Virus record (IMG/VR): IMGVR_UViG_3300037551_000005
Coordinates: 1 to 20,385 of that record
Direction: 5' to 3' (one strand)
DNA: 20,385 nt
DNA from: a virus
The notes under the pieces are model-generated. The model saw only the letters and a program-made list of their open reading frames with translations, did no database searches and was not told the DNA's origin. The first letter of the stretch is position 1; every line of letters begins with the position of its first letter. Shown in pieces: positions 3,687-20,385 of this stretch. The translations under genes and the position numbers were made by a program.

Positions 3687-5780
3687 ATGGCTAGAGCTTC
3701 GGTCCTGCTTTCCAACTTTACCAGCGGGGAACTCAGTCCAAGACTGGAAGGCCGTATAGATTTAGCCAAATATTTCAACGGCTGCAAGACCCTCGAAAAC
3801 TTTATTGTCCATCCTCATGGCGGGGCAACCAGACGGCCTGGGCTTCGCTTCATCTCTGAGATCAAAGATTCCTCAAAGCAGGCTCGTCTGATTCCCTTTA
3901 TCTGGAATGAAGATCAAGCTTACATCATCGAACTGGGTGATACCTATGCCCGATTTTTCTACGATCAAGGGGTATTGCTGGGTAAAGTCGGCTCAGACCT
4001 GGGAACCAATGGAGGGTTTGGGGCGGATACAAACTGGACCAAGGGGACCGGATGGACCATTGGGACGGGCGTGGCCTCTTCCAGTGGTGTACAGACATCA
4101 GACTCTGACCTTTACCAATCAATCGCCTTTACTTCCGGATTGAATTATATCGTCACCTTTACCGTTACCGCCAGATCAGCCGGAAAGATTCAGGCCGTAG
4201 TGGGCGGGACTGCAGGAACAGAAAGAAGCTCGACCGGAACATTCGAAGAATCCGTTGAGGCCGGCGCCGATGGCAAATTAGCTTTCCGGGCCGATGCCGA
4301 CTTTGTCGGGTCCATTGATAATGTCACGGTCTACCTTGAGGGCACCTATGAGATCGTTTCCCCTTATTCTGAGACTCAGGTTTTGTTCATCCGATATGCC
4401 CAGAGCGCCGACGTTCTCCATGTGGCCCACCAGGCCATAGCCCCGCAAAAGTTGACCCGTACCAGCCATACCTTATGGGCCTTCGCGACTCTCTCGTTCA
4501 CCGCTAAACCGTCGGTCTGGACCGGGACCAATTATCCCGGAGTAGTGGGATTCTTCGAACAGCGTCTCTGGTGGGGTGGTACACCTGCCGAACCTCAGAC
4601 CCTATGGGGATCCGCGAGCGGGTCTTATTATGACTTGACTACCGGGACCGATGATGATGATGCCCTGATCTATACCATAGCTTCCAACCGGGTGGATATG
4701 ATCAGGTGGATTGAACCCTACCGGCGGCTCCTGGTGGGTACTTTGGGGAGTGAATGGAGCGCAGGGGCCTCTTCCAGTCTGGATCCCATTACCCCTACAA
4801 ACGTGCGCTTTGAACAGGAAAACACCTTTGGGAGCGCTAATATTCAGGGAAGATTGATTAATAACAACCTTCTTTTTGTCGGCAAACACGGCTACCCCTT
4901 GCGCCAGCTTTCTTATGATTACACCACGGACGGATTCAAGGGCCTGGACCTGGGCCTTTTAAGCGGCCATATCTTTGGTGATGGAGTCTCGGGGTTCGAT
5001 TTCCAGCAAGATCCCGATTCTCTTTTATGGCTGGTGAGGACCGATGGAGTCCTTTTGGGCTGTACCTATTACCCGGACCAAGAAGTGGTTTCCTGGCACA
5101 GGCATATCATAGGAGGAACAGAGGCAGAGGTTGAATCGGCGGCAATCATCCCCGGTAAATACGGTCATGATGAACTTTGGGTGATTGTCAAAAGGACCAT
5201 AAACGGGTCAACAAAACGATATGTGGAAATGATGGAAGGGGACTTTGGGGATGATATAGCCGATGCCTTCTTTGTGGATTCAGGATTGACCTACGATGGA
5301 TCTCCTGCCGATACCTTAAGCGGCCTGGATCACCTGGAGGGTGAAACCGTTCAAGTCCTGGCCGATGGGGCGGTGCATCCTGATTGTGTGGTCGATTCCG
5401 GGACCATTGATCTTCAGTGGGAAGCCTCAAAGATTCATGTGGGTCTGGGCTATACCTCTAAACTGCAGACCATGAGGCTTGAGGCCGGGTCCCAGGACGG
5501 AACGGCACAGGGCAAGGTAAAGAGGGTTCATAGCGCCGCGGTGCGCTTCTATAACACCGTAGGCGGAAAAATGGGGATTGACGAAGCGACCCTGGACCGG
5601 ATCCCTTTCCGATCCACCGGGGATAATATGAACGAAGCGGTCCCGATGTTCAACGGGGATAAGATCATAAAACTTCCTGGAGGCTATAACCGGGACGGAA
5701 GACTCTGGATTGAACAGGATCAACCCTTACCGATGACCGTTTTGGCAATCATGCCGCAACTGGTGACTAACGACCAATGA
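3687..5780 (+). CDS. Tail nozzle / tail tubular protein B-like (T7 gp12 class) with inserted carbohydrate-binding-like domain
   Basis: Protein of 697 residues. Residues 1-60 (SNFTSGELSPRLEGRIDLAK, then GCKTLENFIVHPHGGATRRPG) are the strongly conserved start of podovirus nozzle proteins; the core continues with RFFYDQG at about 89-95 and resumes at YEIVSPYSE (221 onward), RYAQSADVLHVAHQ and KLTRTSHTLW. Between them, residues about 99-219 form an extra beta-rich block with NGGFGADTNWTKGTGWTIGT and SDLYQSIAFTSGLNYIVTFT, resembling phage CBM-like jelly-roll domains. In related proteins the core usually passes straight through this point. The nozzle is a hexameric tube that closes the tail and opens for ejection. 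The stop overlaps the next ATG (ATGA), so translation is probably coupled. Confidence 0.85.
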   Translation: MARASVLLSNFTSGELSPRLEGRIDLAKYFNGCKTLENFIVHPHGGATRRPGLRFISEIKDSSKQARLIPFIWNEDQAYIIELGDTYARFFYDQGVLLGKVGSDLGTNGGFGADTNWTKGTGWTIGTGVASSSGVQTSDSDLYQSIAFTSGLNYIVTFTVTARSAGKIQAVVGGTAGTERSSTGTFEESVEAGADGKLAFRADADFVGSIDNVTVYLEGTYEIVSPYSETQVLFIRYAQSADVLHVAHQAIAPQKLTRTSHTLWAFATLSFTAKPSVWTGTNYPGVVGFFEQRLWWGGTPAEPQTLWGSASGSYYDLTTGTDDDDALIYTIASNRVDMIRWIEPYRRLLVGTLGSEWSAGASSSLDPITPTNVRFEQENTFGSANIQGRLINNNLLFVGKHGYPLRQLSYDYTTDGFKGLDLGLLSGHIFGDGVSGFDFQQDPDSLLWLVRTDGVLLGCTYYPDQEVVSWHRHIIGGTEAEVESAAIIPGKYGHDELWVIVKRTINGSTKRYVEMMEGDFGDDIADAFFVDSGLTYDGSPADTLSGLDHLEGETVQVLADGAVHPDCVVDSGTIDLQWEASKIHVGLGYTSKLQTMRLEAGSQDGTAQGKVKRVHSAAVRFYNTVGGKMGIDEATLDRIPFRSTGDNMNEAVPMFNGDKIIKLPGGYNRDGRLWIEQDQPLPMTVLAIMPQLVTNDQ

Positions 5781-6217
5781 TCAATATCGAAGCTTTCAAA
5801 CCGGAACACGCCGAACAGATCCAGTTGAGGGAGATTGATTTGAAGTCTATCCTTCCCATTGATCCGGTCAAGATGATTCAGAACATGGCCCGGACCGGGC
5901 CGTTCTACACTGGGTTTGTCGATGATGAAATATTATTTATTTGCGGGTTGATGATCTTCTGGCGTGGATTCGCGGAAGCCTGGACCGGGACCACGGATCT
6001 GGTTGAAAAATATCCGATCCTTTTTACCAAGGCCATAAAGAGACTGCTTTCCTTTGAGATTGAAAACCGGAAACTTAACCGAGTTCAACTTAATGTCGTC
6101 GAAAATCATCTTCGGTCTTTGCTTTGGGTGAAACTTCTTGGATTCACTTTGGAGTCTAAAATGGAACGATATGGGCCAAACGGGGAAACGTATTACCGAT
6201 TTGTGAGGTTTGACTGA
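5777..6217 (+). CDS. T7 gp13-like protein with GNAT fold
   Basis: Protein of 146 residues, start within the nozzle stop codon (ATGA). The sequence order INIEAFKPEHAEQIQLRE, YTGFVDDEILFICGLMIFWRGFAEAWTG (read as two parts), KRLLSFEIENRKLNRVQLNV and LGFTLESKMERYGPNGETYY matches small phage Gp13-family proteins that have a GNAT acetyltransferase fold. The acyl-CoA loop R/QxxGxG of active GNAT enzymes is not visible, so it may use the fold structurally. In T7, gp13 (internal virion protein A) is needed for proper assembly of the inner core. The location between the nozzle gene and the internal virion genes is the same as in T7-like phages. Confidence 0.75.
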   Translation: MINIEAFKPEHAEQIQLREIDLKSILPIDPVKMIQNMARTGPFYTGFVDDEILFICGLMIFWRGFAEAWTGTTDLVEKYPILFTKAIKRLLSFEIENRKLNRVQLNVVENHLRSLLWVKLLGFTLESKMERYGPNGETYYRFVRFD

Positions 6218-8776: not shown

Positions 8777-11700
8777 ATGGCGCTTGATTTATCCATGATA
8801 CCGGATGAAAAGCCTCAAGGTGCTTCGGCAACGGCGAAGAAAAGCACCCTGGACCTGTCTATGATTCCCGACGCCGGTACCGCAACCCCGGTCGGGCGGG
8901 AAACCATAAGCACCGACAAGAGACCAAAATGGGAAGATCTTTCCCTTTGGGATAAATTGACTGTTCTCTCCAATCCTTTGACCATGGGCGCCGGATTAAG
9001 AGAAGTATTTAAGGAATCTCCCGAAGATATGCAGGCCAAATCCATCAATGCCCTGGCCATTTCCCAAAAATTAAATATTCCCGCTTCGGCAGTTTATCAG
9101 AATTATGACAAGATCATCAAGGACCCTTCCATTACCGGGATGAATTTCTCCGGTCCGGGCCGTGAGTCCTCCAGTCCGATATCCCGGGCCTATGAATTCG
9201 GGGAAGGATTAAGCAAGATGGCCTTTCCGGCCTTGATCGGGGCCGGACTGATCACTAATCCTCTGGCTACCCTGGGGGCGGTGGGGATGTTTACGGGGGT
9301 TTCAGAGGGATTGAAGTTTGGCGGATCCCTGGCTACCGGGAAAGATTATAAATTCGGGATGCCGGCTTCAGAATTGCTTCCCGGTGACTCCAGTGAAACC
9401 GTCAAGTCAATTTTTGACATGGCCGAATTTATGGGGTCTGCCCTGGCGACGGGTACGCTGGTTAAGGGTTGGAACAAGATCATTCCCGGTGTCCGGTCGA
9501 CAATGGCCGAGAAGTTGTTCCACGATACTATTACCGAGTATAAGGCTCCTGAAAAGGTCTATGTCTCCCCTGAAAAAGTCCGTGAATTGCAGATGGGGAA
9601 TGAGGATGTTGAAAACCAGCTCATAAAAGACCTGGACCTTGACGGCGCCCAATGGCGCCAGGCCCTGCGCATGGGAGTTGATATTGAAGTCCCTGCCGAA
9701 AAGATAATCAGGATTGTTGATAAGCCCTGGTTTGCCAAAATCAAACAGGATTTGAATAAAACGGGTATTTTTTCTCTGTCTCCCTATGAACGCGTTAAAA
9801 TGGAATGGGCGGGAAAGCCAAATGAAAGGCCAGTCCCGACCGGCCAACCTCGTCCCTCCGCTCTACTGCCTGCCCCTGGAGAAGAAGCTACCGGACCTTT
9901 AACCTCCGTACCTCTTTCCGGAGAACCGGGGTCTTCTTCTCCCCTCTATCAAACAAACCTGCAACCGGCCACGGAAGCCCTGGACCGGATCAAGCAGGAG
10001 ATCCAAGCCTCCGGGTTTGACGCCGAATATGCCGAATCTACGGCGGCGCTCCTAGATGCCCGCTCCCGGGTCTGGGCCGTCCAGACCGGCAAGACGCCGG
10101 CGGACTATTTCGAGCGCTGGGGGATCCAGGCGCAGCGCCGGACCTGGAATCCGCGAAACAAGACCCGCGAATCTTCTAACCTGGGGGAAAAGAAAGAGAC
10201 CCTGATCGGCTGGTTAAAGCAACGAGGCGGGGTTTGGGATGAAACGCTTCCTGGTGAAACAGCCCAGTTTGGGCCTAAAGAATCTGGGATGGTGGGCCTG
10301 GTCCGGAAAAGCAGCGGCCAGTCCTTTGACGAGCTGGCTAGTCATGCCGTTCAAGATGGCTGGCTTCCGGAAGGGGCCCCGGCCCGGGATTTTATCGACC
10401 TGCTGTCAAATGAGATCCGAGCCGTCAAGGAAAAGAAACCAGAAGCCAGGGCCGTAAAATCGGGCGGGGGACTGGATCGGGACGCGGCCAGGGCCATGGA
10501 GGGCGGGGGCCAGGCTCAGGGGCAGCTGGGTGAAGAAGCCCAGAAGATGATTGATGCCGGGTTTGATTACTATGGACCCCATAATGAGATAACCGCAGGA
10601 AGCCTGGAAGAGGGCGACAGGGTCATAATCCTGGGGGATGAGTACATTCACAAGGGGGAGGACGAGAACGGCGCTGCACGCCTTAGTGGCGCAGCCGGTG
10701 ATTACCTCCTAAAGCCCGATGATGTCGTTCCGGCTGAAGCGGTCAAGAAAATCAATCAGCCGATTTATGACGGGAAGGGGTTGTTTCAGGGGGCGGAAAA
10801 CAGCGGCACGCTCCTTGACATTGAGAAGTCTTGGGAGTCAAAGGGAATAGAGTCGAGTTTATACGAGAAAAACGGGATCATTACCTTAAGTAAAATAATC
10901 ATACCTAAGGGTTCACGAAACCAGGGCAAAGGGAAGGCCGCAATACAGGAACTTCTGGATTACGCAGATAAAACAGGGCAAAAAATTGCCCTTACACCAT
11001 CGAAAGACTTTGGCGGCAACAAGGGCAGACTAAACGCGTTTTATCGCAGCTTTGGATTCAGGACAAATAACGATTTTTCGATAAGTGAAAAGTTGGTACG
11101 AGACCCGATTTATGACGGGAAGGGGTTGTTTCAGGGGAATATCATTGACTTTCCTTCTAAGGGTAAACGCACTGAAAAATCAAAAATTGTTACTTATGGG
11201 GATGGTCTTTCTTTTGAGTTTCCCTTAAAAGAGGATGGAACAATAGATCCAGGCCATTGGAAGTTTGAAAACGGAACTACTATAACGGTATTAGCAAACG
11301 GAGAGATGCATAGAAGCATTAGTATTGGAGAGTTAAACCGCAAGGCAACCGATAAAGATTTGCTAGGATATGACAAAGCGTTAAAAATACAAAACGTCCG
11401 AGATAAATTTCATATTGTTAATCCTTCGAAAAGTGAAGAACAATTCCAAACCCCAGTCCAAAAACTCCGCACCAATCCCATTCCCGTCGAATCCGGCGAA
11501 ATTATTACCTCCTATTACAAGAATGATAAAGTCAAGGCTCACCCAGACTATAAAGCTGCAAAAGGCGGAGATTGGGAGGCGGCGGCCAGACTCGTCCCTG
11601 ATGTGGTGAAGCCGGAAACCATCGAGGCGGTAAAGTCCCTGGCCGGAGAAGGGGCTATTTTTGCCTATCCGCAGGCTCTGGAGGAAGCGGGAAGAAATGC

Positions 11701-14700
11701 CATTCCCGGTTTCTTGGCCAACTATTATGCGACCCTGACGGGTGGATCAGTTGACGATAAGATCATTCAAACCAACCGCGCTTATCACACCGGGGCCAAG
11801 GCCATGGAGCGGTTTATTTCTCCGGTGCATTTTGACGGAGAAGTAATCCCGGGCGGAAGATATGTTTTGGTTGATGATGTGAGCACTTTAGGTGGTACGA
11901 TAGCCGCACTGGCGCACCATATTCAGGAGGGAGGCGGGCAGGTTGCCGGCATTATTTTCTTGACAAATGCCATGAGATCGCGTACCATCGTCCCCAAAGA
12001 AAACGTTATTCAGGATATAGAAAGGAGATACGGCGATGCAGTCAGAGAAGAATTCGGAATCGACCCAAAAGCCCTTACCGCAGCCGAAGCCGGATATCTC
12101 CATGGTTTCCGAGATGCTGACTCCCTCCGAGCAAGAGCAGCTAAGGCAAGAGAAGAAAGAATTGAACGCCTACGCTCAAAAGGCATTCGCCCATCTGAAA
12201 CCGACCAAGTAGACCTCTTCCAGGGGTCCAAAATCCCCAAAGGTTCCCTTTCCTTTAACGCCGACAACAAGGCCGTCCTTACCTTTTTCCAATCCGCCGA
12301 TCTTTCCACCGCTCCGCACGAGATTTTTCACCTTTTTCTGGAAGACTTTCACGACACCGCCCTAACTCAAGGCGTTCCCGATCAGGTTAAAAAAGACTTC
12401 CAGACCGTCCTGGACTGGTTCGGCGTCAAGTCCTGGGATGAGGTGACCACGGCCCACAAGGAACGCTGGGCCAGGGCCGGGGAGAAATATCTTGGGTCCG
12501 GGAAGGCGCCCTCCGTTGAGCTGCGGTCTGTCTTTGAACGTTTCAAGGAATGGATTCTCTCCGTCTATAAAGCCCTGCGGGAACTGAACGTCAATCTGAC
12601 CAAGAAAATGCGCGGCGTTTTCGACCGCCTTTTGGCCACGGAAGAGGAGATCCAGACCATGAAGGCCGAGATGGATATCAAGCCTTTGTGGCGCGAGGGC
12701 CAGCCGCCGATAGGGATCTCTCCCGAGGCCTGGGCCAACTATGGCGAGCTGGCCAGGCGGGCAGCGGTGGCCACGCAGGAGGCCATCGAAAAACGCCGTC
12801 TGGAGGAGTTTAACGAGGCTAAGGGCAAATGGACAAAGGATGCCCAAGAGCTTTACCTGAAGGATGTCCGTCATGAACTGATGGAGCAAATTGTTCAGGG
12901 CGGGGGACTGAATAAAGAAATGCTCCTGCGGGAATTTGATGAGGCCACGGTTAACGCCCTCTCCCGGCGTCGACCGGGCCTGGTCCGGAACGACGGCAAG
13001 CTCTCCCATGAAATGGTGGCCTTCGGCAGTAACGATATTTCCACGGATCAGTTGGTAGATACCTTGCTGAATACGGAAACCAAAGAGGAATTCATCGATA
13101 ATTATATCAAGACCCAGACCGAAGAATTTGATTCAGAGATCCCCTTGGGTGAGACGGCCATTACCGATGAATATTTGGCCATGATTCATAAAGAAATGGA
13201 ACTTCTGCTTCAGGCCTCGACCAAAGGGGGCCCGGGAAGGGTTCCCCGGAACAGCGAAATCAAAAAGAGAATCCGCTGGGAAACCGGTCAGACCCGGGTG
13301 GATGACCTGGTTACCGAAACCGACGCCCTGAAGGCCGGACTGCAGATGGCCGGGCGGGCGGCGCGGGAGGCTTTGCGCGCCGGCAAGATGGAACAGGCCC
13401 TCTACGAAAAAGGCCGGCAGCGGGAAATCGTCATGAACCTGAAGGCCAAATACGAGGCCCAGCGGGAGATTGACAAGACGAAAGCCTATTTCAGCCGGGT
13501 GGCTAAATCAACGACCATCGATTGGGATTTCAAAGCCCAGATCCTGGATATCCTGGCTGACCATGAGATTATCCGCCGGCAGGATTTTCCCCGGGAGAAC
13601 ATGCCGACTCTGCGCAAGTTTGTGGCTGACCTGACGGCCGCGGGCGAGATGCTCGATATCAGTGACGCCATGCTGGACCGGGCCTATATCGGCCCCATGA
13701 AGGGCCGCACCTATGATCAGTTGATGGATATCCGCAACACCGTGGAACAGATCGAACACCTGGGCCGTATTCAGAACAAGCTGATCGCCGAAGAAAAGGT
13801 CCGGGACGTTCAGGAAGCGGTCGATGAAGTGACCGGGAAGATCCGACAGTATTACGGCAAGAAGTTTGTGGAGCCTTCCGGGCACCTGGAATTCGAAGAG
13901 CAAAAGAACATCCTTCAGAAGGCCGGGGAATTTGCCGACGGTTTTATTAAGGAGCTGATTAAACCGGAAGTGATTATCCGTCTGCTGGACGGCCTGGAGG
14001 AGATGGGGCCGGTCTGGCAGAATACCTTTGCCAAGATAAAGGCGGCCGAAGATAAAGAAATCGTCATGGGTAAAGACTTCATGAAACGGCTCAAGGAGGT
14101 CTTTGATAAAATCCCGAAGGATCAAAGGCGCTCCTGGTTAAATCAGAAAGTTTCTATTCCGGAGATCCCGGAAAAGTTTTTAACCAAGTCTCAAATGATC
14201 ATGGTTGCCTTGAATAGCGGGAATACCGGAAACCGCACGGCCCTGAAGGCCGGGTCCGGCCCGGATCCGGAGCAGCAATGGGATGACAGTTCCATCCAGG
14301 CCATTACCGATAAATTAAGTAAAGAGGAATGGCAACTGGTGCAGGAAGTCTGGTCCTTAATCAATGAGCTTTATAAGCCCTTAAATGAGGTCCACCGGGC
14401 CTTGACCGGGGTACCGCTAAAGAAGGTGGAAGGGATTACCGTCAAGACCCCATACGGGGAGATCGACGGGCAGTACTTTCCCCTGGTCTTTGATCCAAGC
14501 CCTAAGATGGGTCAAAAGGCCGAGCGCTATATGCTGGAAATGGCCGAGAAGGATATGTTCGCCAACTACTATGCCAGGCCGGTACCGGGCAGCGGGTTCA
14601 CTAAAGAGCGCGTGGGCGGGAAGATGTTCCCCTTGCTGGATTTCTCGGTCATTACCGGGCACATCAATGATGTCGTTCATTTCGTTTCCAATGCCCTGGA

Positions 14701-15856
14701 GATTCGGGATGTGAACAAGGTGGTCACTGACGTAGATGTCCGGGCGGCCATCGAGCAGTCCCTGGGAGATAATGCCTATAAACAGATCGGACCCTGGTTG
14801 CGATACGTGGCCCGGTCCGAGCATAAACCAATCCTGATGGGGGAGAAGATACTGGGCTGGGTCCGGCGAAACTCGAGTATTGTTATTTTGGGAGTCAAGG
14901 CCACGACCGCCTTAATGCAACCCCTGGCTTCTACGCAAGGGATAGAATACCTCGGGCTAAAGACCTGGTTAAGCGGGGCCAAGCAATTTTATTCAGCGCC
15001 CATTGAATGGTCCAACTTCATCAAAGAAAGATCCCCGATGATGTCGACCAGGTATTCTTCGGAAACCCTGGACCGGGAGATGGCCCAGTTTGCAAAGCAA
15101 TTCAATCCTGCCGGAGATTCCATTAAGGACCTAGCCATAGAAAGCTTCTTCGCCTGGATGAACGTGATGGATGCCTCGGTGACTTATCCCACCTGGATGG
15201 CTGCCTATAAAAAGGCCATGGATAAGAATTTGTGGAATGAGAAAAAAGCGATTGAATATGCCGACATGGCCACTAGACTTTCCCAGTCTTCTTCCGCCGT
15301 TAAAGATCAGGCCCTGGCCATGCAGGGGAAAGAAGGGGCCTGGAAACTGTTTACCATGTTTCAAACCTTTTTCAACGCCTTTTTTAACCGGATCGTTGAA
15401 AACGTGAAAGGTTTCGGGCTGGGTACGGTAGGGATCGGCGGTCTCGTGTCCGCCTTTACCTGGCTCATTCTGGCCCCGGCTACCATCCAATATGCCGCCT
15501 TCGAAAGAAAGATTCCGAGTGTGAAGGATGTCGGCCGGGAAGGACTTCTCTACTTATCAAGCGGTGTTCCCCTTGTCCGCGACGTTATGAATGTGATTCT
15601 GACCGACTTTGACTACAAGGCTTCTCCTGCCTTCGGAGCTGTTTATGAAATCGGATATCTCGCCAAATCACTCAGGGCCAAAGACCCAAAGCTGAAGTCA
15701 ATTTTAAAACATAGTCTCATGCTTGGTGGATATGCGGCCGGATTGCCTACGGCTCAAGCGGTTGTTACTTTGACGGCAATTTTTGACATGATTGAAGGGA
15801 AAGAGACCAACCCCCTAAATCTTTTACTTAGAAAACCAAAAGAGGAAAAGAAATGA
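8777..15856 (+). CDS. Giant internal virion / polyvalent protein: GNAT-like, phosphoribosyltransferase-like and zinc peptidase modules
   Basis: Protein of 2359 residues; GAGGAA ribosome site overlapping the previous gene's end. Order: duplicated LDLSMIPD (3-10, 25-32); hydrophobic segment about 147-178; conserved polyvalent-type regions about 402-460 (GKTPADYFERWG) and 475-560; small barrel-like segment about 600-655; linker PIYDGKGLFQG (662-672); GNAT-like module with RNQGKG (714-719) and FYRSFGF (755-761); the same linker (777-787); AT-rich unknown module about 788-900; phosphoribosyltransferase-like module with YVLVDDVSTLGGT (1029-1041); LFQG (1147-1150); zincin with HEIFH (1181-1185) and likely third ligand E1236; then a long helical region with conserved QMIMVALNSGN and TMFQTFFNAFFNRI segments and a membrane-prone stretch about 2212-2245. 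Position corresponds to T7 gp16. No lysozyme or transglycosylase motif is visible. Module functions are family-based; targets are unknown. Confidence 0.8.
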   Translation: MALDLSMIPDEKPQGASATAKKSTLDLSMIPDAGTATPVGRETISTDKRPKWEDLSLWDKLTVLSNPLTMGAGLREVFKESPEDMQAKSINALAISQKLNIPASAVYQNYDKIIKDPSITGMNFSGPGRESSSPISRAYEFGEGLSKMAFPALIGAGLITNPLATLGAVGMFTGVSEGLKFGGSLATGKDYKFGMPASELLPGDSSETVKSIFDMAEFMGSALATGTLVKGWNKIIPGVRSTMAEKLFHDTITEYKAPEKVYVSPEKVRELQMGNEDVENQLIKDLDLDGAQWRQALRMGVDIEVPAEKIIRIVDKPWFAKIKQDLNKTGIFSLSPYERVKMEWAGKPNERPVPTGQPRPSALLPAPGEEATGPLTSVPLSGEPGSSSPLYQTNLQPATEALDRIKQEIQASGFDAEYAESTAALLDARSRVWAVQTGKTPADYFERWGIQAQRRTWNPRNKTRESSNLGEKKETLIGWLKQRGGVWDETLPGETAQFGPKESGMVGLVRKSSGQSFDELASHAVQDGWLPEGAPARDFIDLLSNEIRAVKEKKPEARAVKSGGGLDRDAARAMEGGGQAQGQLGEEAQKMIDAGFDYYGPHNEITAGSLEEGDRVIILGDEYIHKGEDENGAARLSGAAGDYLLKPDDVVPAEAVKKINQPIYDGKGLFQGAENSGTLLDIEKSWESKGIESSLYEKNGIITLSKIIIPKGSRNQGKGKAAIQELLDYADKTGQKIALTPSKDFGGNKGRLNAFYRSFGFRTNNDFSISEKLVRDPIYDGKGLFQGNIIDFPSKGKRTEKSKIVTYGDGLSFEFPLKEDGTIDPGHWKFENGTTITVLANGEMHRSISIGELNRKATDKDLLGYDKALKIQNVRDKFHIVNPSKSEEQFQTPVQKLRTNPIPVESGEIITSYYKNDKVKAHPDYKAAKGGDWEAAARLVPDVVKPETIEAVKSLAGEGAIFAYPQALEEAGRNAIPGFLANYYATLTGGSVDDKIIQTNRAYHTGAKAMERFISPVHFDGEVIPGGRYVLVDDVSTLGGTIAALAHHIQEGGGQVAGIIFLTNAMRSRTIVPKENVIQDIERRYGDAVREEFGIDPKALTAAEAGYLHGFRDADSLRARAAKAREERIERLRSKGIRPSETDQVDLFQGSKIPKGSLSFNADNKAVLTFFQSADLSTAPHEIFHLFLEDFHDTALTQGVPDQVKKDFQTVLDWFGVKSWDEVTTAHKERWARAGEKYLGSGKAPSVELRSVFERFKEWILSVYKALRELNVNLTKKMRGVFDRLLATEEEIQTMKAEMDIKPLWREGQPPIGISPEAWANYGELARRAAVATQEAIEKRRLEEFNEAKGKWTKDAQELYLKDVRHELMEQIVQGGGLNKEMLLREFDEATVNALSRRRPGLVRNDGKLSHEMVAFGSNDISTDQLVDTLLNTETKEEFIDNYIKTQTEEFDSEIPLGETAITDEYLAMIHKEMELLLQASTKGGPGRVPRNSEIKKRIRWETGQTRVDDLVTETDALKAGLQMAGRAAREALRAGKMEQALYEKGRQREIVMNLKAKYEAQREIDKTKAYFSRVAKSTTIDWDFKAQILDILADHEIIRRQDFPRENMPTLRKFVADLTAAGEMLDISDAMLDRAYIGPMKGRTYDQLMDIRNTVEQIEHLGRIQNKLIAEEKVRDVQEAVDEVTGKIRQYYGKKFVEPSGHLEFEEQKNILQKAGEFADGFIKELIKPEVIIRLLDGLEEMGPVWQNTFAKIKAAEDKEIVMGKDFMKRLKEVFDKIPKDQRRSWLNQKVSIPEIPEKFLTKSQMIMVALNSGNTGNRTALKAGSGPDPEQQWDDSSIQAITDKLSKEEWQLVQEVWSLINELYKPLNEVHRALTGVPLKKVEGITVKTPYGEIDGQYFPLVFDPSPKMGQKAERYMLEMAEKDMFANYYARPVPGSGFTKERVGGKMFPLLDFSVITGHINDVVHFVSNALEIRDVNKVVTDVDVRAAIEQSLGDNAYKQIGPWLRYVARSEHKPILMGEKILGWVRRNSSIVILGVKATTALMQPLASTQGIEYLGLKTWLSGAKQFYSAPIEWSNFIKERSPMMSTRYSSETLDREMAQFAKQFNPAGDSIKDLAIESFFAWMNVMDASVTYPTWMAAYKKAMDKNLWNEKKAIEYADMATRLSQSSSAVKDQALAMQGKEGAWKLFTMFQTFFNAFFNRIVENVKGFGLGTVGIGGLVSAFTWLILAPATIQYAAFERKIPSVKDVGREGLLYLSSGVPLVRDVMNVILTDFDYKASPAFGAVYEIGYLAKSLRAKDPKLKSILKHSLMLGGYAAGLPTAQAVVTLTAIFDMIEGKETNPLNLLLRKPKEEKK
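10760..10792 (+). repeat. 33-bp direct repeat, copy 1 (LFQG linker before GNAT module)
   Basis: Identical over 33 bases to 11105-11137, spaced by 345 bp (115 codons). It starts on a codon boundary and encodes exactly 11 residues, PIYDGKGLFQG (662-672 of the giant protein). Together with copy 2 it brackets the GNAT-like module in frame. Confidence 0.95.
11105..11137 (+). repeat. 33-bp direct repeat, copy 2 (LFQG linker after GNAT module)
   Basis: Second perfect copy, encoding PIYDGKGLFQG at residues 777-787 of the giant protein. No third-position differences separate the copies although they lie over 300 bases apart, so the duplication is recent or kept uniform by recombination. The AT-rich module begins directly after it. 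Confidence 0.95.
11138..11460 (+). other. AT-rich module inside the giant gene (residues about 788-895)
   Basis: This stretch is visibly poorer in G and C than its surroundings (23 of 60 in the line at 11281, against 32 of 60 at 14521) while staying in frame. It encodes a beta-rich block (YGDGLSFEFPLKEDGTI, then HWKFENGTTITVLANGE) and a helical end (DLLGYDKALKIQNVRDKFHI). I do not recognise the family. Composition and its position after the LFQG linker suggest a separately acquired module. Confidence 0.6.
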
Positions 15857-18398: not shown

Positions 18399-18965
18399 AT
18401 GAAAAAAAATCTCGTTTTTTTGTTGATTTTATCTTGGGTCTTTCCGTCCTTTGGTTTGGCCGGAGGATTGATAGGGAGTGGCGGGACGACAGGGGTTTGT
18501 TCTCTTTGCAGATCGGGAACCGACGGATCGCTTTACCGGCCAAATACTGCCACAGAAGACAGTTCTTTGGATGCCTGGATTGCAATGCCATTCAACTTAG
18601 GTGCAAACAAATGTATAAGCGGAGTAACAGCATCGGCGTTTGACAATGGCAGTAGTTATGGATTAACCGGAGAAATATATACGGATTCAAGCGGTTCACC
18701 TGGCAGTATAGTGGCCCCTGGTTATACCTCCACGATGGCTAATATCCCTGATGCCATTGCCAATAATGTACTTTCATTTGCAGTCGTGCAGAATCTTCCA
18801 ACCGGGGATTATTGGATAGTTATCAAGCCGACAGGAACAGTAAATTGGGGGAAGAGAACATCGGGAGGGATTACTACGTTAAAATTTAGTGCCCTAAAAA
18901 ATGGGAGTGATTGGCTACCGACAACCTGGAAAGTAGATTTAGGGGTGCTTGGATGCTCTCAATAA
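18399..18965 (+). CDS. Predicted exported beta-sandwich protein with signal peptide
   Basis: Protein of 188 residues, 8 bases after the previous gene, with a weak AGGTGA ribosome site. Residues 1-21 form a signal peptide (MKKN, hydrophobic LVFLLILSWVF, cleavage after GLA). The motif LIGSGGTTG (24-32) parallels the Gly-rich motif of the preceding protein at the same distance from its signal peptide, and is followed by CSLC. The body is beta-rich (CISGVTASAFDNGSSYGLTG, YTDSSGSPGSIVA, GDYWIVIKPTG), a pattern found in jelly-roll modules of surface and extracellular proteins. No enzyme motif seen. Likely a receptor-binding or surface accessory protein working with its neighbours. Confidence 0.7.
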   Translation: MKKNLVFLLILSWVFPSFGLAGGLIGSGGTTGVCSLCRSGTDGSLYRPNTATEDSSLDAWIAMPFNLGANKCISGVTASAFDNGSSYGLTGEIYTDSSGSPGSIVAPGYTSTMANIPDAIANNVLSFAVVQNLPTGDYWIVIKPTGTVNWGKRTSGGITTLKFSALKNGSDWLPTTWKVDLGVLGCSQ

Positions 18966-20385
18966 AACGCCTGATATTCCTATTCTGTCTATTATCAATT
19001 CCTTGTTCGACCTTTGGTGCCGATATTTACATTACTCAGGCAACGTCGGGGAGTGACACAGGGGCAAGTTGTGCCAATGCCCACTCAGCCTCTTGGTTTA
19101 ATACCAACGCAACAGGCGGGAATGTCTATCACCTCTGCGGCACGTTTACCGGAACAGCAGGACAGACCATCTTGACTATTCCGGCAAGTGGTACGGCAGG
19201 ACCAGGGAATGATTTAAAGGTTTTATTTGAGACGGGTGCAATACTTGCAGCCCCTTATTGGAGTCTGAATGGAGCAATTCATATTAATGGTAAAAACTAT
19301 ATTACTATTGATGGGGGGTCAAACGGAGTCATAGAAAATACAGCCAATGGTTCAGGATTGACATATCAGGCAGATACTGCTGGGTTACTTGTAGAAGGAA
19401 ATTCATCCCATATTGAGATTAAAAATTTAACCGTTACAAATATGTATGTTCGTGAGATATCTCTAGCCAGTCTTGACAGAGCAGGTGGAACCTCATGGGG
19501 TGTTCAAAATACTTCCTCTGGAACTGATATATCTATTCACAATAATAATGTATCTTGGTGTAGTGGTGCTATTCTTTCCGGAGGTTCAGGAGGAACAAAT
19601 TTTAACATATATAGTAACACAACTAGACACATGAATTGGGGGATATATATTACTCCATCCTCTGACGCAGCAATATCTAATTATAATGTTTATAGTAATG
19701 ATATCTCAGATTGGAGTGGTTGGGAATGTCCTGGTGGAGGTGCGGCAGGTATTTGTGCAGCTGGGGTATCCCCCTGGGATTCAGGAACAACATATTCCAT
19801 TGATCAACGAGTTACCAGTGGTGGTCTAATATGGAGGAGTAAAGTTAACAGTAATTATGGAAATACTCCTGAAAATGGAAGTTATTGGCAAGATATGGAT
19901 GTATTTCACCAAGATGGAATATTTATTGCTGGTCATCACATTATTTCTACTACTCCTATTAATATTTATAGTAATTATATTCATGGTTTAACGGGTGGAA
20001 GTCCATCGGCTTCAATTTTTTTAACCCTTCAACCATATAGTTATACTTTGGATGACTTGCCTGGGCCAAGAGTATATGTTTACAATAATATTATTACTCC
20101 AGATCCCGTTAGAGGAGGAATTGGAGTTATCGCAAGTGGTTCAGGGGCTAGTAATTGGTTTTATAATAATACCATTGAAGCTGGTGGGTCGGGTGCTTCT
20201 TGTTTCATTTTTTCTAGTGCAGGAGTTAAAACTCTAGTTAATAACATATGTATTAATGCAAAACTTGGAATTGAAACCTGGGATTCCTATATGGGTGGAC
20301 CTCAATACACATTAGGAACAGTGGATTATAATATCTGGTATAATTCTTGCCAAATGGGTCATTGTTGGTCTGATATTAATCATAT
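18953..20385 (+). CDS. Right-handed beta-helix protein with signal peptide (3' truncated), tailspike/polysaccharide-lyase-like
   Basis: The frame starts at ATG 18953 inside the end of the previous gene (13-base overlap, AGGGG ribosome site) and is open to the right edge, giving 477 complete codons. Residues 1-23 are a signal peptide (MLSIKRLIFLFCLLS, ending TFGA before DIY). Residues 24-120 (DIYITQATSGSDTGASCANA, YHLCGTFTGTAGQTILTIPA, FETGAILAAPYWS) match the start of bacterial extracellular beta-helix proteins. After ITIDGGSNGVIENTANGSG come many coil-like repeats (EIKNLTVTN, SIHNNNVSWC, NIYSNTTRH, NVYSNDISDW, VYVYNNIITP, NWFYNNTIEA). Residues 275-312 carry an inserted W-TTY-RV-W-NTP-YW module like small chitin-binding-type domains. 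Probable role: binding or cleaving surface polysaccharide. From about 19240 the DNA is clearly AT-rich. Confidence 0.8.
   Translation, partial: MLSIKRLIFLFCLLSIPCSTFGADIYITQATSGSDTGASCANAHSASWFNTNATGGNVYHLCGTFTGTAGQTILTIPASGTAGPGNDLKVLFETGAILAAPYWSLNGAIHINGKNYITIDGGSNGVIENTANGSGLTYQADTAGLLVEGNSSHIEIKNLTVTNMYVREISLASLDRAGGTSWGVQNTSSGTDISIHNNNVSWCSGAILSGGSGGTNFNIYSNTTRHMNWGIYITPSSDAAISNYNVYSNDISDWSGWECPGGGAAGICAAGVSPWDSGTTYSIDQRVTSGGLIWRSKVNSNYGNTPENGSYWQDMDVFHQDGIFIAGHHIISTTPINIYSNYIHGLTGGSPSASIFLTLQPYSYTLDDLPGPRVYVYNNIITPDPVRGGIGVIASGSGASNWFYNNTIEAGGSGASCFIFSSAGVKTLVNNICINAKLGIETWDSYMGGPQYTLGTVDYNIWYNSCQMGHCWSDINH
19240..20385 (+). other. AT-rich tract covering the beta-helix
   Basis: G plus C falls to about 22-40% in lines I counted (13 of 60 at 19921, 24 of 60 at 19981) from about half upstream, with a codon shift to AAT, ATT, GGT and AGT. 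The change occurs inside the gene, after the signal peptide and first domain, which suggests the helix part was acquired separately from its N-terminus. Confidence 0.65.

Follow-up and report, generated by a model that had tools for sequence, protein, structure and literature searches.

Exact linker repeat around a GNAT module and protein-specific tags at module borders in phage large polyvalent proteins

We analyzed an exact 33-nt repeat in a 20,385-nt stretch of virus DNA (the window, meaning this whole stretch) and found that it lies within the gene of a large polyvalent protein (LPP), where its two copies encode the linkers on either side of a GNAT acetyltransferase module. LPPs of this kind often carry a short tag at both ends of a cargo module, a tag that is repeated inside one protein and different between proteins. 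On sequence comparison, we read the repeat as a duplicated inter-module linker and the tags as most likely processing or recognition sites, probably for proteolysis, a reading that we regard as having an even chance of being right.

RESULTS

The repeat lies in an LPP gene of a BPP-1-like podovirus

The ORF that carries the repeat follows the head and tail genes, and its neighbors encode a major head protein (phrog_212) and tail proteins (phrog_376 and phrog_394). The source virus is a BPP-1-like podovirus: residues 1147-2351 of the ORF product are 23-31% identical to LPPs of such viruses, and a phrog_9880 match (E=3.5e-211) spans most of the protein. The features to which we refer are these:

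8777..15856, + strand: LPP gene, 2359 aa, carrying the repeat (ORF; phrog_9880; homology to BPP-1-like LPPs)
9944..9955, + strand: linker tag LYQT, aa 390-393 (motif scan)
10760..10792, + strand: linker copy 1, PIYDGKGLFQG, aa 662-672 (exact repeat; within a low-pLDDT segment of the model, aa ~661-675)
10793..11104, + strand: GNAT acetyltransferase module, aa 673-776 (phrog_10691, sub-threshold Pfam, LPP homologues, folded model, Foldseek)
11105..11137, + strand: linker copy 2, PIYDGKGLFQG, aa 777-787 (exact repeat; overlaps a low-pLDDT segment of the model, aa ~784-798)
11138..11440, + strand: orphan module B, aa 788-888, GC 0.356 (composition; almost no similarity in fetched loci)
11441..11452, + strand: linker tag QFQT, aa 889-892, ahead of the phosphoribosyltransferase (PRTase)-like module (relative L026 has GQMQQTP at the equivalent place)
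11459..12166, + strand: PRTase-like module, aa ~895-1130 (PF00156 sub-threshold; phrog_22413, 3e-54; pyrE/apt models)
12215..12226, + strand: third LFQG tag, aa 1147-1150, ahead of the HExxH domain ([LIVFYM]xQ here in 100/102 relatives)
12239..12646, + strand: HExxH metallopeptidase-like domain (HEIFH at 12317-12331; active-site residues invariant)

The product is very large, has many domains, and is encoded amid virion structural genes. It combines several kinds of catalytic effector module that LPPs are known to carry (MPTase, GNAT, and PRTase), and its order is N-terminal region, GNAT, orphan low-GC module, PRTase-like domain, and HExxH domain. The Pfam/NCBIfam matches to PRTase and GNAT fell below cut-off yet were consistent. 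LPD domains are common in LPPs, though not obligatory, and the relatives L195, L212, and L218 carry LPD38; with the window protein as query, Pfam gave no LPD hit at E<=1, so that its filing as an LPP rests on resemblance in architecture and homology rather than on a curated-domain match. It fits the description of the LPPs of phages and conjugative elements by Iyer et al. (2017; PMC5512222). Searching IMG/VR with the full-length protein gave zero matches, that is, no close relative.

The PRTase-like module is 43% identical to that of L026. In the HExxH domain, the H, E, and H residues and a distal Glu (E96/E103) are invariant in 32 aligned sequences, so that both the HExxH motif and the distal Glu ligand of an MPTase are present. 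Its model shows two strands followed by the HExxH helix; a Foldseek comparison of this model with PDB folds gave zero matches, and the label "zincin" therefore rests on motif and alignment.

Elsewhere in the window, a separate GNAT-like ORF of 146 aa (5777-6217) has the large tail protein on one side and the internal proteins on the other, and phages Parlo, Skulduggery, and ZX1 have similar small acyltransferase genes upstream of the LPP gene. An open-ended tail-fiber-like ORF at 18911-20383 has a GC content of about 0.36-0.38, far below the rest of the record.

Two identical linkers flank a GNAT module

The two copies are identical over all 33 nt, both begin on codon boundaries of the ORF, and they are spaced by 345 nt, or 115 codons; the coordinates and sequence given in a sequence-only reading of this DNA were borne out. 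Given the 11 residues, the probability that all codons would be equal by chance is 2.2e-5 under the gene's own codon usage. Exact in-frame repeats of such length, low-complexity ones aside, were rare: among 170 non-redundant long ORFs of the fetched loci, one other gene had them. This LPP ORF (L065) contains exact in-frame repeats of 39 nt and 35 nt (aa 841/1011 and 972/1194) that sit in the start and end motifs of adjoining ART domains, so that in this gene, too, DNA at the edges of modules was recently copied.

The motifs RNQGKG and FYRSFGF, from which the module had been called GNAT-like, are both present, and profiles, homologues, and a model back the identity. phrog_10691 matched at E 2e-19, with Pfam GNAT scores below threshold; similar GNATs were found in many LPPs, and a single-protein query with the GNAT in genomes returned 8 loci. 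RNQGKG fits the R/Q-x-x-G-x-G acetyl-CoA motif, whose two Gly residues are invariant in 35 aligned sequences. The model has a folded core (pLDDT >90) and low-confidence stretches over or beside both linkers, which are probably disordered. Both the acetyl-CoA motif and the GNAT fold were found, since the Foldseek list for the model was dominated by GNAT structures, with 5isv at the top, 6iuf at a TMt of 0.67-0.70, and RimI and AcrVA5 among the best structural matches, none of them below E 0.001. PADLOC reported nothing for this module.

The copies flank a GNAT of ~104 aa, as had been proposed, with two corrections. The opening P of linker copy 2 aligns with the final residue of the conserved GNAT end VR(E/Q/M)P. 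The GC argument is weak: the module is poor in GC (0.439), but the dip is not confined to it, as the next ~300 nt past copy 2 are lower still (0.356), hence no border in composition coincides with the second repeat. These ~300 nt form orphan module B, which had almost no similarity in any fetched locus and may have come in together with the GNAT as a single low-GC import.

The linkers of the window protein carry [LQ][FY]Q(G/T), and LFQG is present three times. The third LFQG is written in codons other than the repeat's (CTCTTCCAGGGG vs TTGTTTCAGGGG).

Tags around GNAT modules are alike within a protein

We compared the 34 aa before with the 34 aa after the GNAT, using BLAST-defined borders, and scored each protein's own pair of flanks against permuted pairs. 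Own pairs were far above permuted ones in 67 non-redundant GNAT-bearing proteins (z 8.5, 0/10000), and still so with the window protein left out (z 7.8). Some cut-offs had been chosen after seeing the window, a point addressed in part by new loci and displaced flanks: 18 strictly new proteins, from later scans and with no detectable overlap with the first set, gave z 7.0, and the signal was gone when the flanks were displaced outward by 40 aa (z 0.6) or 80 aa (1.05). With stricter borders the test covered 11 proteins only and was not significant without the window. A replicate on ART flanks was weak (n=18, z about 2.3).

Pairs on the two sides of a GNAT include DVPLFSR/DIPLFSR, DIPTFSR/DMPTFSR, KYSKGE/KFSKGE, and LFSSSS/LFSSAS, and in other proteins the same tag stands on both flanks (LRSAPA, GESFSLS, GATFSL, LEQRD, and SFEQ, each twice). 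At L109, DPNDANILNQ comes after two unrelated modules, a GNAT and an ART. The tags are specific to the protein (LFQG, PLFSR, PTFSR, LFSSAS, TFSL, KFSKG, LRSAPA). Over whole proteins, 7-mer pairs within a protein were not in excess over pairs between proteins (ratio 0.81), which indicates that clear tags occur in a subset of proteins only; the top tetrapeptide per protein was only slightly above shuffled sequences.

GNAT modules are mobile, and tag class is associated with the backbone

In 102 non-redundant proteins with a BPP-1-like HExxH domain, [LIVFYM]xQ occurred within the 34 aa before this domain in 100, compared with a mean of 44 and a maximum of 60 after shuffling. Replacing Q by E, N, K, D, S, or R in this test gave flat results. 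Outside the HExxH junction, L[FYHN]Q was enriched at BLAST-edge module borders (80/202 vs 53 +/- 6 expected), composition-matched controls again being flat, and S and G were enriched after the hydrophobic-x-Q motif.

The class of tag was associated with the backbone: HExxH backbones had 26 Q and 0 S tags and backbones without HExxH had 6 Q and 14 S tags (Fisher P=1.6e-7), a comparison confounded by lineage and in which the Q class includes the pre-HExxH tag when the GNAT directly precedes HExxH. By contrast, the GNAT tree did not cluster by backbone type (17 changes vs a shuffled mean of 19.2, on few columns and weakly resolved). Together, these two observations indicate a mobile module and a tag that stays with the backbone.

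L026, the closest relative to share the PRTase and the backbone, lacks the GNAT, and its slot is filled by another HExxH module; it is only 25-43% identical to the window protein and is without the linker too. Such a module (LLLHEIGHEIS) occupies the cargo slot of the L026 and L066 LPPs at aa ~530-536, where the usual HExxH domain is missing. The tree and this relative support the proposal that the window's GNAT is a mobile module.

Linker DNA is often copied with a module, and the 33-mer was found in no other phage searched

The sequence-only reading had taken the linker DNA as a homology site for the swapping of modules between phages; RecA- or Red-type recombination between linkers would exchange, remove, or multiply modules. 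The 33-nt identity with every codon equal, the movement of the GNAT between backbones, and the existence of a GNAT-less relative speak for this explanation. It also gains from codon sharing elsewhere: among the best tag pairs on either side of the GNAT, with the window excluded, 41/55 identical residues shared their codon where 24.4 were expected (z 4.8), while identical residues paired randomly between the same flanks gave a codon ratio of 0.98. The linker pair of L149 is identical at 18/18 nt, and L212 and L218 have nearly identical 21-nt pairs. This excess suggests that linkers were often copied as DNA along with a gained module; the window is the most recent such case seen, the peptide then being maintained.

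However, we found the 33-mer in no record but its own, where it stands only on the two sides of the GNAT, with zero matches in 50,697 phage records, and a degenerate 24-mer for YDGKGLFQ showed that no other IMG/VR contig encodes this peptide. The same DNA site was thus found neither beside other modules nor in other phages. Whether the repeat ever adjoins another domain was a point on which the reading had itself proposed to be judged: the DNA does not, but the peptide LFQG does, at 12215-12226. Moreover, tags differ between backbones, even between orthologues, so that donor and recipient would not share a site and inter-phage homology would be poor. Exact repeats are rare in such genes, and multi-copy tags in L195 and L212 keep their peptide at chance codon identity (see below). 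As judged from these comparisons, the GNAT slot is variable and the 33-mer site is not common to relatives. A role of the linker DNA as a homology site between phages was not supported, and we consider this explanation unlikely.

Tag peptides are kept at chance codon identity in some proteins

Several relatives carry one tag many times: LFSS six times in L195 (0.04 expected), PTF[SA] six times in L218 (0.05 expected), and TFSL six times in L141/L190 (0.02 expected). Codon identity among the copies was at chance in L195 (18 vs 23.0 expected) and L212 (8 vs 10.1), slightly above expectation in L218 (34 vs 27.0), and clearly so in L190 (35 vs 21.2), so that peptide conservation and DNA copying both play a part. 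Tags occur four to six times in L195 and L212, and there the peptide is kept while codons are at chance, suggesting that selection acts on the peptide.

The orthologues L212 and L218 are 42-52% identical. L212 has PLFS three times and PLYS once; in L218 there are four copies of PTFS and two of PTFA, the tag Thr being coded in four ways (ACA, ACC, ACG, ACT). PLFS thus stands against PTFS/PTFA at all tagged junctions, and the tag peptides seem to have changed in concert, with no gene conversion at the Thr codons.

These observations bear on whether the tags might be plain flexible spacers, their likeness within a protein reflecting recent duplication of linker plus module and nothing else. The linkers are indeed modelled at low confidence, like disordered segments, and DNA-level sharing is seen in several pairs and in L190. 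Plain spacers would nevertheless account poorly for the strict requirement for Q (or FS) with flat composition controls, for a peptide that survives codon change (the four Thr codons of L218), for concerted change in orthologues, and for a tag class tied to the backbone; we hold this possibility to be just as improbable as the homology site. Less probable still is a non-proteolytic recognition role, for example in docking or threading for packaging of the LPP into the capsid or ejection through the tail: LPPs are encoded among virion genes and a tag peculiar to each protein could fit a cognate portal or ejection protein, but the hydrophobic-x-Q (S/G after) or [FY]-S shape and the strict position ahead of the HExxH domain look more like protease sites.

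DISCUSSION

We favor processing or recognition sites, probably for proteolysis, as the explanation of the tags, and we infer a scheme that covers cleavage, the identity of the protease, injection, and the order of evolutionary events. The LPP would be a multi-effector protein, probably present in the virion and injected. Cutting at the tags, in the head or in the host, would release the GNAT, the PRTase, and further modules. For Q-type backbones the likeliest protease would be the LPP's own HExxH domain, which itself comes after a [LIVFYM]xQ tag; otherwise, a head maturation protease is an alternative candidate, and FS-type proteins may use another enzyme. The GNAT plus one linker would have been gained recently, through duplication or insertion at an existing linker, and the exact 33-nt repeat would be the record of this gain. 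In older linker copies, codons would drift while the peptide is kept.

More broadly, LPPs may be self-cleaving polyproteins, each with its own junction tag co-evolving with its protease, such that an incoming module needs the tag of the recipient; we put this somewhat below an even chance. If true, it would amount to a modular code of injected effectors with protein-specific separators. Polyvalent proteins deliver many counter-defense effectors at once, and a tag that marks borders would allow LPPs to be parsed into single effectors by sequence alone. The tags also predict neo-termini that are testable with proteomics, and point to possible Q- and S-specific phage proteases.

The window protein resembles the LPPs described by Iyer et al. 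in being giant and multi-domain, in its place among virion genes, and in combining an MPTase-like HExxH domain with GNAT and PRTase modules (PMC5512222). In that work, RimI-like GNATs were often found beside ART in LPPs, the P1 protein DdrB was noted to be processed, and autoproteolysis by the MPTase was proposed; its main text mentions neither linkers nor LFQ or LYQ, and repeated protein-specific inter-module tags are not described there. Nor did we find inter-module tags described in the literature searched, which does not exclude prior knowledge in the field. GNATs of the AcrVA5/RimI type are alike in fold, but the sequence similarity of the window's GNAT to them is very weak (6iuf, E 0.51).

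Phage prohead proteases offer one parallel. The motif of the T4 prohead protease is LXE. Ejection proteins of giant phages are cut at lineage-specific motifs, AXE in SPN3US and SXE in phiKZ (PMC5694885). In all three phages, as proposed for the tags, short lineage-specific motifs direct the processing of packaged or ejected proteins. Unlike these X-x-E sites, the tags described here have Q or S and separate effector modules within a single protein; we identified no prohead protease in the 20-kb record.

The second parallel is with viral polyproteins that carry 3C/TEV-type sites, where (V/L)xFQ-G/S-like sites are repeated at module borders and change in concert. The putative cleavage of LPPs would differ in that its candidate protease is the HExxH domain rather than a chymotrypsin-like cysteine protease.
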